Source: Desulfobacterales bacterium (GTDB taxonomy: Bacteria > Desulfobacterota > Desulfobacteria > Desulfobacterales > JAIPEE01). Taken from it: a DNA stretch of 64,000 nucleotides. This document shows, in pieces, positions 2,702 to 18,106 of the stretch. Each line of letters starts with the position of its first letter. Position 1 is the stretch's first letter. Both the position numbers and the translations under genes were made by a program. The notes under the pieces were generated by a model. It had not been told where the DNA came from. It was given only the letters and a program-made list of their open reading frames with translations, and did no database searches. The stretch spans positions 62,001-126,000 of the forward strand of contig JAIPEE010000004.1 in the NCBI GenBank assembly GCA_021737275.1, read 5' to 3'.

Positions 2702-2980
2702 TTAGTTGTTATCAACTTTTTCCTTTAGCTCTTTACCAACCTTAAAGAAAGGTAATTTCTTGGGCGGTACTTCTATCTGATCACCGGTTTTAGGATTTCT
2801 GCCTACGTAGGGTTTATATTCTTTTACCGTAAAGCTGCCAAATCCTCTAATTTCAACACGCTCCCCGTTTGCAAGGGCATCTGAGATAGAATCAAAGAAA
2901 GTATTTACTATTTTTTCAGCATCTCGTCTGCTGAGATCGGTTTCATTTTTAACAGCATTAATCAGATCTGATCTGTTCAT
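2702..2980 (-). CDS. HU/IHF-family DNA-bending protein (IHF-beta-like)
   Basis: The 92-residue protein is a complete HU/IHF monomer. It has the two N-terminal helices (RSDLINAVKNE; AEKIVNTFFDSISDAL), the core RVEIRGFGSF and the DNA-gripping arm with GRNPKTG and the intercalating Pro in the beta-ribbon. Its core is closer to IHF beta (EIRGFGSF, GKEL near the C-terminus) than to HU. It would bend DNA in nucleoid packaging and at promoters that need looping, including sigma-54 promoters of the kind proposed elsewhere in this window. The gene follows scpB on the same strand after 65 bases and is followed by a strong terminator. A second, damaged IHF-like gene lies at about 17.2-17.5 kb. Confidence 0.9.
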   Translation of the reverse strand: MNRSDLINAVKNETDLSRRDAEKIVNTFFDSISDALANGERVEIRGFGSFTVKEYKPYVGRNPKTGDQIEVPPKKLPFFKVGKELKEKVDNN

Positions 2981-14063: not shown

Positions 14064-16919
14064 TCACTCCGGCTTTATGATCAATATTGCAGCCTTATCA
14101 TTATCCAGATACTTTTTTGCCAGATCGGAAACCTCTTTAGCTGTTATTGCTGCATAATCGTCAAGAATGGAACGGCTCCATTCAATCTGCCGGGGATGCC
14201 TCACGGAACCGGTCACTACGGTATCAAGCCAGTAATCATTGGTCTTGATCATATCCCTGATGCCGGTCAGAACCGGGGCTTTTGCCCGCTCCAGTTCATC
14301 TTCGGGGATATCGCCTTTTGCAAGATCTGCAACAATCTTTTTTATCTCTGACACAACGAGATCAATCTGATCCGGTGAAAGCGGGACGTATGCCTTAAGT
14401 GACCCAAAATCCTTATAAGTTCTGCTTCCCCGGTTGAAGGCGAATACACTGTAAGCCACCCCCATCTCTTCTCTTATCCTCAATCGTAACCGTTCCGAAA
14501 GTACGGATGCCAGCGTGTTCAGACGACGCGTTCTCCGGATATCCCAAATATCTTCTGTCGGATAAGCGACAATTACCAGCGCTTTTTCCATACCGGTTTT
14601 AGCGGTGAGAATCTCTTTCTCACCGGCAGGAAGTTTTGGCAGGTCTGTTCTTTGCCGGGCCACAGTCTGTTTTCTGTCCGGTAGCGTGCCCAGGTATTTT
14701 GCCACATTTTCAATAATTGTATCTGTATCAAAATCTCCCACAACCGTAACTTCCAGGGGTGCCGTTTTTAAAGGTGGCTCAATCCAGGCTTTAATATCTT
14801 CTATGGAAAGGGCACTTAACTGTTCATAGGATGGAAATCCGAATCGGGTATCCCCACTGGCAAGAAATCTTCTGCCTTCCAGTGTCATCATGCCTTCAAC
14901 CGTTCCGATCTGGGATTTATATTCCTGATTCAGCCGTTCAAGAGACAGCAGATAAGCATCTTCACGAAATGCCGGATCCATAATCCGGGCATAAAGCAGT
15001 TCAAAAAGCAGCGGCGTCTCCTCAGGAATGGTCACACCGGAAAGCAGAAAGTGACTCCCGTCAACATCAAACCATGTCCCGGTTTTTTTCCCTGCAAGAG
15101 CACGATCAAGTTCATTTTTTGTAAGGGCGCCCAGACCGCTCTCATTAATAACAGCTGAAGAGAGGGTTCCAAGGCCCGGCTTATCAACCGGTTCATCAGA
15201 TCGACCGTTTCCAAATGTAATATTTATAAGAATCTCATCTACCTTAAAATCAGTTTTTTTAAGGTTCAGACGAACACCATTTTTAAAATCAATTTGCGTA
15301 ATGCCCAGATCTTCAATGGTCTCCTGTTTTATTATTTCCCCTGATGCATCCGGTACCGGAAGATACGGAAATGAAACGGCCTTTGCCTCTAACGGTTTTG
15401 ATACGGCAACAGCCAGGCTGGAATTGTACGCAGCCAGAATTTGTCCGGTTGCATCTTCATCTGTTTCATCAAGCTGAAGGTTACCGGTAAGCAGAATTAA
15501 TCTGTGATCCGGTGACCAGGTCTCCTGGAACGCCTGATGAACATCCTCAATTGTCAATTCTGCCAGAACAGGCGCAAACAGCGCCAGCTCCTGGCCCGGA
15601 GAGCTGAAAACTTTGTTGTAGTTAAGGCTTCTCATCAGCCTGCGAGCCAGTGTCTGGCTTTTTCTGGTTGGTGCTTTTTCCACAGCTGTTTCAAGTTGTG
15701 CCAGCGTATCTTTTTTGACACGATCCAGTTCCGATTGTGTAAAACCATAAGTCAGGGCAGTTCTCAATACCTGTTCAATCGATGCCAGAATATCTTCCCA
15801 CTTTTCAGGATCACCTTCAGCGGCAATTTCAGCATAATCGACAAAATTGAGGTAATGACCGGAACCGATTATGGCATCCGTAAATGGTGTGCCCGGTTTG
15901 CTGACCATTGTTTCCAGTCTGTTCTGGACAACTTGATCCGCAATATGGCGAACAAACATCTCTTTTCGGCGTGCAGCTGTATCTTCAACAGGACTGTTTT
16001 TTGTAGCAACTTCAATAGTTATGTTCGTGCTGCCGGCATCAGGTTCATAACGGTAAAAAGATTTTATGCCCTTATGGTCTATATCTCCGAATACAGGTTC
16101 AGGGCGAGCCGGTGCCCTTGCCTGTATATCGGCAAACCGTGATTCAACCATCGGAATAACATGATCTGCTTCAAAATCACCGGTGATAACCAGAACCATT
16201 TTTTCAGGACGATACCAGGTATCATAAAAATCCTTAAAGACAGAACGGTCCGCATTTTTCACAACATCCTCGGTGCCGATGATAATTCTTTTGGAAAAGA
16301 TAGAATCCGGAAGCTCAAATTTCAGTGCCTCAACATAACTTCTGTAAGATTCAGAATCCCGGTCCCGTTTTTCAGATAGAATAACTTCCCGCTCTTTTTC
16401 AATTTCAGTTTCCAGCAACAGCGCTCCTTCAGCATAATCTCCGAGAACGGTAAAACCTTTTTTAAAACTCTCGTCAGTACCATCCGGCAGAATGACATCA
16501 TAAACAGTTTCAATGAATCCGGTATGGGCATTCACATCAGCGCCGAAATCCATCCCGATGGACTGGAAAAATTTTACGAGGTCACCCGGCGCAAAGTTGG
16601 TGGAACCGTTAAAAAGCATGTGTTCAAGAAAATGGGCAATTCCTCGCTGATCATCAAGCTCATATATGGAACCGGCCTGAACATTAAGATGCATGCTGAC
16701 CCGACCAGGCGGGGTCTGGTTTGGCATCAGTATATATCTGAATCCATTATGAAACCGGCCATAAATAACTGCCGGGTCCGGCTCAAGATCACTTTTTTCG
16801 TGTGGCCAGGTTGGTGAAGCATATTGACCGGTTGTCGTGCAGGAGGAAAGGAATAACGACGTTAAAAAAAGAGTCGTAACAAGAATAAAAATAGTTGATC
16901 GCAAACACCTATTGATCAT
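14064..16919 (-). CDS. M16 family zinc peptidase, lipoprotein, PqqL/pitrilysin-like
   Basis: The protein is a full-length two-repeat M16 peptidase of about 950 residues. A lipoprotein signal ends at the lipobox LSSC about 27 residues in, so it is probably anchored in a membrane facing the periplasm. The inverted zinc motif HFLEH (HxxEH) followed by MLFNGS is in the first domain, with the downstream ligand region EREVILSEKRDR. The second half (LGTLSSAVINESG; MGVAYSVFAF) is the inactive partner repeat that closes the chamber and contributes the R/Y pair. It should degrade peptides in the periplasm. The ATG at 16919 sits nine bases from GGAG; the ATG at 16928 would directly abut that site. It has its own terminator. 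Confidence 0.9.
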   Translation of the reverse strand: MINRCLRSTIFILVTTLFLTSLFLSSCTTTGQYASPTWPHEKSDLEPDPAVIYGRFHNGFRYILMPNQTPPGRVSMHLNVQAGSIYELDDQRGIAHFLEHMLFNGSTNFAPGDLVKFFQSIGMDFGADVNAHTGFIETVYDVILPDGTDESFKKGFTVLGDYAEGALLLETEIEKEREVILSEKRDRDSESYRSYVEALKFELPDSIFSKRIIIGTEDVVKNADRSVFKDFYDTWYRPEKMVLVITGDFEADHVIPMVESRFADIQARAPARPEPVFGDIDHKGIKSFYRYEPDAGSTNITIEVATKNSPVEDTAARRKEMFVRHIADQVVQNRLETMVSKPGTPFTDAIIGSGHYLNFVDYAEIAAEGDPEKWEDILASIEQVLRTALTYGFTQSELDRVKKDTLAQLETAVEKAPTRKSQTLARRLMRSLNYNKVFSSPGQELALFAPVLAELTIEDVHQAFQETWSPDHRLILLTGNLQLDETDEDATGQILAAYNSSLAVAVSKPLEAKAVSFPYLPVPDASGEIIKQETIEDLGITQIDFKNGVRLNLKKTDFKVDEILINITFGNGRSDEPVDKPGLGTLSSAVINESGLGALTKNELDRALAGKKTGTWFDVDGSHFLLSGVTIPEETPLLFELLYARIMDPAFREDAYLLSLERLNQEYKSQIGTVEGMMTLEGRRFLASGDTRFGFPSYEQLSALSIEDIKAWIEPPLKTAPLEVTVVGDFDTDTIIENVAKYLGTLPDRKQTVARQRTDLPKLPAGEKEILTAKTGMEKALVIVAYPTEDIWDIRRTRRLNTLASVLSERLRLRIREEMGVAYSVFAFNRGSRTYKDFGSLKAYVPLSPDQIDLVVSEIKKIVADLAKGDIPEDELERAKAPVLTGIRDMIKTNDYWLDTVVTGSVRHPRQIEWSRSILDDYAAITAKEVSDLAKKYLDNDKAAILIIKPE

Positions 16920-17185
16920 GATGGTCATCTCCGTGATTGTATTGAATACTTGAAGCAGGCATTATAATAATAACGATTAATTTACTTGATAATAAGACAA
17001 CACTACCTAAAGTTCAAGGGAAGGATTTTATGGCCGGTCAAAAAAAGAGATTCTGAACAGGCCACTGAAGAAATTCCAAAAGTTTTCTACACCTCTTTTG
17101 TTGAAACATCCTGGGTGTTGTGTGTGATCTTTTTATAAAAAAATTGGGCGTTCCGGCTGGGAATAAAAATATATATCAATAAGGC

Positions 17186-17455
17186 TTATCTGATCTCTTC
17201 CGTGAATTTTTTGCTAATTTTAAACCTGGGAACCGCTCTTGCCGGGATCTTGACTTTTTCACCGGTTTTTGGATTACGACCATTTCTCGCATTTTGGTGG
17301 ATCGATTTAAATGTACCAAAACCTGAAATTTTTATGTCCTCGCCTTTTCCCAGAGATATAATAATATCCTCAAGAAAGCTTTCCACTAAAGCCCTTGCTG
17401 CTTTCTTATCTCCCAAATCATTTCAAATTTCATCAATCAGTTCTGCCTTATTCAT
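17186..17455 (-). CDS. IHF-alpha/HU-like DNA-binding protein, interrupted by an in-frame TGA (possible pseudogene)
   Basis: From the ATG at 17455 the frame gives MNKAELIDEI, then TGA at codon 11 (17425-17423), then NDLGDKKAARALVESFL and the rest of a standard HU/IHF monomer. Landmarks include KISGFGTF and GRNPKTG in the DNA-binding arm. Without the TGA it would be about 89 residues, the normal family length, and the peptide on both sides of the TGA matches the family's first helix. It is closest to IHF alpha. Possible readings are a nonsense mutation, a sequencing error, readthrough, or a shortened product from the TTG at 17416, which would lack most of helix 1. It lies 22 bases after the DksA/TraR-type gene on the same strand. 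Confidence 0.7.
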
Positions 17456-17477
17456 ATTTTTCTTTCTTTTCTTGTTA

Positions 17478-17837
17478 TCACCCGAAAGCTTTTTCGAGTG
17501 ATTCGGATCTGTTTTTACATTGAATACAGAAGGATGTTACCGGTCTTGCCTTAAGCCTTTCAATTGAGATGTCTTCGCCGCACATATCACAAATCCCATA
17601 TGTCCCGTCATCTATCCTGTCGAGTGCCTGGATAATTTTCTTAATAAGCCTGCTTTCTCTGTCTCTGATTCTGAGTTTGAAACTATAGTCAATATGTAAT
17701 GTCGCCTTATCAATAAGATCAGATGCTTCCATGGATGAAGACCGAATCTCATCGACAGTCATGTTTGCCATTTCCATAAGTTCATTAAGTTGTTGATTCA
17801 GTAAGTTCTCAAAAAAAATTAAATCACTTTCTTCCAT
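17478..17837 (-). CDS. DksA/TraR-family zinc-finger transcription regulator
   Basis: The 119-residue protein has an N-terminal coiled-coil hairpin region and a C-terminal four-cysteine zinc finger: CDMCGEDIS and FCIQCKN. In the DksA family such proteins enter the RNA polymerase secondary channel and change promoter kinetics, often with ppGpp. The two acidic tip residues typical of DksA are not obvious, so it may belong to the TraR/YocK-like branch. The gene starts two bases after the stop codon of a small cysteine-containing hypothetical and precedes the damaged IHF-like gene, so these are probably one transcript. Confidence 0.88.
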   Translation of the reverse strand: MEESDLIFFENLLNQQLNELMEMANMTVDEIRSSSMEASDLIDKATLHIDYSFKLRIRDRESRLIKKIIQALDRIDDGTYGICDMCGEDISIERLKARPVTSFCIQCKNRSESLEKAFG

Positions 17838-17839
17838 AG

Positions 17840-18106
17840 CTATCTCCCAAGCTCATTAAACGTTTCTTTTTCTATCTCCACCGGAGAAATATTTATCGCC
17901 TGTTTTACTGCCTCACCACAGTGATCAAGAACATTTTCCGATTTAAAAATAATACAGTCTTTACACCAGTAACGAATATTTCCCTTCCGAAATATGTCCT
18001 CACAGGAACTTCGAAAATAGTGTTTATTCTGATCCTTCGGGCAAGAAATTAACTCCGGATAATTTATTGACATTGTTTTAAATATATACCCCCGCTTTGC
18101 TTTCAT
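17840..18106 (-). CDS. Small cysteine-containing hypothetical protein
   Basis: I do not recognise this protein. It has about 88 residues from the chosen ATG at 18106 and contains five cysteines, three of them in LISCPKD and YWCKDC, which could form a small zinc or redox site together with the SSC and DHC cysteines. No signal peptide or membrane segment is visible. Start choice is weak: an ATG at 18073 (MSINYPEL) and a longer frame reaching 18178, inside the upstream gene, are alternatives, and none has a clear ribosome site. The stop codon lies two bases from the DksA/TraR-type start, which argues for coupling with it. Confidence 0.55.
   Translation of the reverse strand: MKAKRGYIFKTMSINYPELISCPKDQNKHYFRSSCEDIFRKGNIRYWCKDCIIFKSENVLDHCGEAVKQAINISPVEIEKETFNELGR

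Follow-up and report, generated by a model that had tools for sequence, protein, structure and literature searches.

An HU-family gene with an in-frame TGA at codon 11 in a selenocysteine-using Desulfobacterales draft genome: probably a recent nonsense mutation in a dispensable paralogue

Does a single in-frame TGA in an otherwise whole bacterial gene reflect a nonsense mutation, a recoded codon, a leaky stop or an error in the sequence? The question is raised by an HU/IHF-family gene of 89 codons plus stop, recognized by its translation and Pfam match, that lies on the minus strand at 17186-17455 of the 64,000-nucleotide stretch of Desulfobacterales DNA analyzed here (the window). Read from 17455 to 17186, the frame consists of 10 residues, a TGA at codon 11 (17423-17425, read 17425-17423, with A as the next base), 78 further residues and a terminal TAA; translation of 17186-17455 contains no second stop or frameshift. 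The read-through product scores 102.1 bits against PF00216, where the cut-off is 22.4, and the match spans positions 1-89 of 90, so that the initial annotation of this stretch was right to describe a gene of family length with one TGA at codon 11. Codon usage downstream of the TGA is gene-like (log-odds +12.0 over 78 codons); therefore, the frame past the stop is not a product of chance. The RNPKTG arm motif and the GFGTF core are both kept, and codon 11 falls in the helix-1 region.

The gene had been labeled IHF-alpha-like, and this label does not hold. IHF alpha is indeed its best NCBIfam match, with only 85.4 bits against a cut-off of 111 (NF001401) and 72 against 120.25 (TIGR00987), and the gene stays below every NCBIfam cut-off listed. 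In the HU tree, it falls within a 48-row group together with dksA-linked copies (support 94/99, just below the mark used by the tool, which also warned that the bootstrap had not settled and that the placement of long rows is unsure). Two of the dksA-linked copies in the same group (L134 and L135) have HU-alpha as their best NCBIfam match, also below its cut-off. Score and tree position both speak against IHF alpha, and the neighbors of the gene in the tree are HU genes. Compared to the known HU-family nucleoid proteins (PF00216), the gene is alike in its full length, its retained arm motif and core, and its clustering with HU genes from within the order, of which some sit next to dksA; it differs in the TGA at codon 11 and in a branch far longer than those of most relatives.

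The genome holds seven HU/IHF matches, and a stop is found inside the window's 17186-17455 gene only. The six uninterrupted genes include an IHF-beta-like gene in the window itself (2714-2980, minus strand; C77:64714-64980), which had been noted earlier and scores 110.3 bits for IHF-beta, just below the cut-off of 115; a more alpha-like paralogue at C94:2475-2741, with 92.6 bits for the NCBIfam alpha model, below its cut-off and higher than the TGA-bearing gene; and an IHF-beta-like paralogue at C46:35544-35810 (L005; 89.6 bits, below the cut-off). The concern that loss of the alpha partner would matter is thus not upheld. L005 carries GLC in place of the usual GFG core motif.

An intact dksA-like gene with a DksA_N domain and a C4 zinc finger (17478-17837, minus strand) is located 22 nt upstream of the HU gene. 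Among the loci compared, 12 besides the window's own copies contained both DksA and HU matches, and in nine of these (L012, L134-L138, L143, L149 and L155), which span three families (f7, f29 and f30), the two genes share a strand and their aligned ends lie less than 350 nt apart; the exceptions are L145, with a wider gap, and L147 and L173, with opposite strands. In a midpoint-rooted DksA tree of 41 rows, the other dksA of this genome (on contig C40) belongs to a slow 26-row group (support 85/78), whereas the window dksA and the 12 dksA copies that share a locus with HU fall outside this group. The window dksA has a branch of 0.83, compared to a median of 0.069, and is intact. The genome accordingly carries two dksA lineages (17478-17837 of the window and C40:14887-15243). 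We infer that the dksA-HU pair of the window consists of accessory copies, and the linkage of the non-slow dksA lineage to HU in families f7, f29 and f30 may reflect a functional connection between DksA and HU.

To see what codon 11 encodes in homologues, tblastn matches were taken from the own genome, from the order and from the best 80 loci of a scan of genome contigs, retaining matches that start no later than query residue 5 and are free of gaps in the first 15 columns. This yielded 144 rows, or 141 without the three copies of the window gene, near-identical sequences being counted singly. Small residues occupy the position in 133 of the 141 rows (83 Ala, 30 Thr and 20 Ser); the remainder are two His, two Gln, two Lys, one Glu and one Met, and there is no Cys, Trp or Arg in any row. 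The initial annotation had expected TGG, CGA, TCA or similar; TCA is indeed present, in 13 of the 141 rows, whereas TGG and CGA are found in none. The search of the order covered 389 genomes, the own one included, 57 of which had a match at E <= 1e-18; among the 59 matches listed at this threshold from the 56 other genomes, none has a stop. The disruption is therefore absent from relatives, as in a pseudogene, where the relatives compared belong to other families of the same order; the 39 other genomes listed in the relatives search include none of the same genus or family. The best 80 matches of the genome-contig scan were mostly HUs of Bacteroidota and Nocardia, with no near relative, and a viral scan gave 11 relatives at 36-47% identity.

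The terminal branch of the TGA-bearing gene in the HU tree is 1.48 changes per site, eleven times the median of 0.13, while the branches of three HU paralogues in the same genome are 0.13 (L002), 0.011 (L003) and 0.13 (L004). A long branch alone does not signify decay because the alpha-like L007 of this genome, which has no stop, has a still longer one (3.28). The TGA-bearing gene retains 22 of the 24 residues at positions conserved at 95% or more, and 27 of 32 at 90%, as determined from 45 of the 47 other members of the clade (two identical copies were left out). Neutral evolution was also simulated from the present gene, with a ratio of indels to substitutions that we assumed to be one to ten. 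At 5% divergence, 17% of the runs were still free of any further stop or indel, and at 10% divergence 4% were. Since neutral decay adds stops and indels this quickly in the simulation, any loss of selection on the gene is recent. Selection has thus acted on the gene through most of its history; as for the stop, it is recent, or tolerated via low-level readthrough, or not real. PMC7918605 describes in-frame stops in bacterial genes as tending to be short-lived on the evolutionary time scale. The gene resembles that set, whether pseudogenes or leaky genes, in having one nonsense codon in an otherwise intact, conserved frame, and departs from it in that its stop is common to no related genome found.

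The simplest reading, and the one we consider probable, is a recent nonsense mutation in a fast-evolving HU paralogue that is probably dispensable. Under this scenario, an accessory HU paralogue that sits just 3' of an accessory dksA and changes rapidly in this lineage would have recently mutated to a stop at codon 11. Ribosomes starting at the ATG at 17455 would terminate after 10 residues, and full-length product would arise only through rare misreading of the UGA. The cell would probably tolerate the loss because its six other HU/IHF genes are uninterrupted. This reading is supported by the restriction of the stop to this gene (one of seven in the genome, none of the 59 other listed matches), by the long branch and by the fast but intact dksA neighbor. 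The retention of 22 of 24 conserved residues is also what a gene still under selection would show, and this counts against decay. We infer that the allele is genuine, of recent origin and with little effect.

The best surviving alternative, which we regard as unlikely although deserving some weight, is that the UGA followed by A is misread by a near-cognate tRNA, so that a little full-length HU is made and the stop only lowers expression. UGA followed by A is a leaky context in Escherichia coli, and the base after the UGA here is A. The retained HU core is also consistent with continued expression. Furthermore, bacterial genes with in-frame stops common to several species have dN/dS below 1 on average, according to PMC7918605, which also regards these dN/dS values as rather high and concedes that some of the genes may be true pseudogenes. 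Against misreading, the stop recurs in no listed homologue match, the long branch suggests weak constraint, and the Ala, Thr or Ser found at codon 11 in nearly all rows fits poorly with insertion of Trp. No suppressor tRNA for UGA was found among the loci covered: at least 42 RF00005 matches were obtained with 150 of 211 first-look candidates scored, and among the 35 loci on which ARAGORN was run (the RF00005 matches and tRNA-Sec; the weakest match, on C14, was not called), the sole TCA anticodon belongs to tRNA-Sec. A tRNA-Trp was seen neither among the typed tRNA matches nor by one exact pattern, which is probably a gap in the draft or in the search.

Somewhat less likely again, the TGA stems from a mistake in base calling or in the consensus, or belongs to a minority strain, and most cells carry a sense codon. 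One substitution suffices to create the TGA, the TCA found in some homologues is one base away from it, and the assembly is a draft of 104 contigs with an estimated contamination of 4.02%. The long branch, by contrast, fits true decay, and a partial check of the window found no other interrupted gene with a known domain: it covered four of the 39 further candidate stops, whose eight flanking pieces gave no Pfam match. Readthrough and assembly error had both been proposed at the outset, and both are retained here as rivals, the former for the conserved core and the next base A, the latter for the single substitution and the draft state of the assembly.

There is little to recommend a restart downstream of the TGA that yields an N-terminally shortened HU used as such. 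In-frame start-type codons do exist 3' of the TGA, including the TTG at 17416 (17414-17416, minus strand) that had been put forward as a possible start; the codon is present, but it has no Shine-Dalgarno-like sequence (+0.4 kcal/mol). A GTG at 17386 is preceded by a Shine-Dalgarno-like stretch (-4.2 kcal/mol) that is better than that of the native ATG (-0.9). Either product would be missing helix 1 of the dimer core, and the GTG product part of helix 2 as well, which argues against its use.

Selenocysteine at codon 11 was considered because the machinery for it is present in this organism, and we assign it hardly any probability. The genome encodes a tRNA-Sec (73.4 bits, confirmed by ARAGORN), SelB (372.3 bits), two SelD genes and an FdhA, the last three each with an in-frame TGA and thus available as controls (n = 3). 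The selD genes are neighbors (C63:165761-166684, L190, and 168564-169484, L189), each with its in-frame TGA followed by a bSECIS-like hairpin, and apparently represent two selenoprotein SelD copies in one genome. The bSECIS model cited in PMC13188914 includes a loop of 3-9 nt with G in the first two positions, a spacing of 16-37 and an energy of -7.5 kcal/mol or lower. We applied these constraints in a scan of suboptimal folds to the HU site, the controls and 1,500 ordinary sites. The HU site has a weak hairpin (17375-17395, minus strand), whose AGUGG loop begins 35 nt past the UGA and which agrees with the rules for loop size, G position and spacing; its energy of -6.7 kcal/mol misses the limit by 0.8. 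The controls are stronger (-12.4, -7.6 and -11.3 kcal/mol), and their loops, GGA, GGUC and GGUCU, start at 20, 17 and 18 nt, compared to 35 for HU. The scan is not very specific, as 262 of the 1,500 ordinary sites pass the -7.5 limit: 37, 260 and 55 of them do as well as the first, second and third control, respectively, and 314 do as well as HU, so that the second control, SelD2, which passes by 0.1, is hardly better than HU. In an earlier, stricter scan that handled bulges badly, HU even gave -4.8, compared to -2.9 for the genuine SelD2, and 445 of 4,985 ordinary sites matched the HU hairpin.

Energy alone is therefore not decisive; the spacing, the folding energies from +10 to +36 and the missing Cys weigh more. 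In the +10 to +36 region, the controls have -10.7, -8.2 and -11.2 kcal/mol and rank among the best 0.6%, 2.7% and 0.4% of 4,985 codon sites taken from long open frames, whereas HU has -1.1 and is equaled or surpassed by 70% of these sites. Folded over the full 61 nt, the HU site reaches -9.4 kcal/mol, no better than shuffles (z -0.13), and the apical loop of this fold, AAGG, lacks a G at either of its first two positions. None of the homologue rows has Cys at codon 11, none of the other listed homologue matches has a TGA, and we know of no redox role at helix 1 of HU. Literature searches for selenoprotein and selenocysteine with "DNA-binding protein HU" found nothing, and those for "integration host factor" with selenocysteine and selenoproteome had a match only on elongation factors; in the review PMC13188914, no word of the main text starts with "DNA-binding" or "histone-like". 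In an Rfam search of 16800-18000, none of the four matches with E up to 5 reached its gathering score. The gene thus shares with bacterial selenoprotein genes an in-frame TGA and a host genome that encodes the Sec machinery, and is unlike them in that no Cys homologue, adequate bSECIS or TGA homologue was found. Taken jointly, the tests of the hairpin, of Cys and of conservation lead us to reject selenocysteine, as had been anticipated; as to the original remark that no hairpin is seen just after the TGA, a weak one does exist downstream, far from the UGA.

Reassignment of TGA does not apply here because TGA ends 8 of the 34 stop-to-stop open frames of at least 250 codons in the window, and a programmed frameshift is rejected since the +1 frame, read by eye, does not rejoin the HU frame. 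We give almost no credence to the UGA as a regulatory leak, by which an HU-like protein coupled to the accessory DksA would be made only upon misreading or recoding of the UGA, for example through selenium or RF2 status; if true, this would tie chromosome packing to the state of translation.

The probable explanation thus remains a recent nonsense mutation in a probably dispensable HU paralogue, and one in-frame TGA in a draft genome that uses selenocysteine is not by itself evidence of recoding. The genome's own selenoprotein genes are useful controls for judging such in-frame TGAs. If close relatives turned out to keep the stop, it would be worthwhile to study HU as a leaky partner of an accessory DksA.
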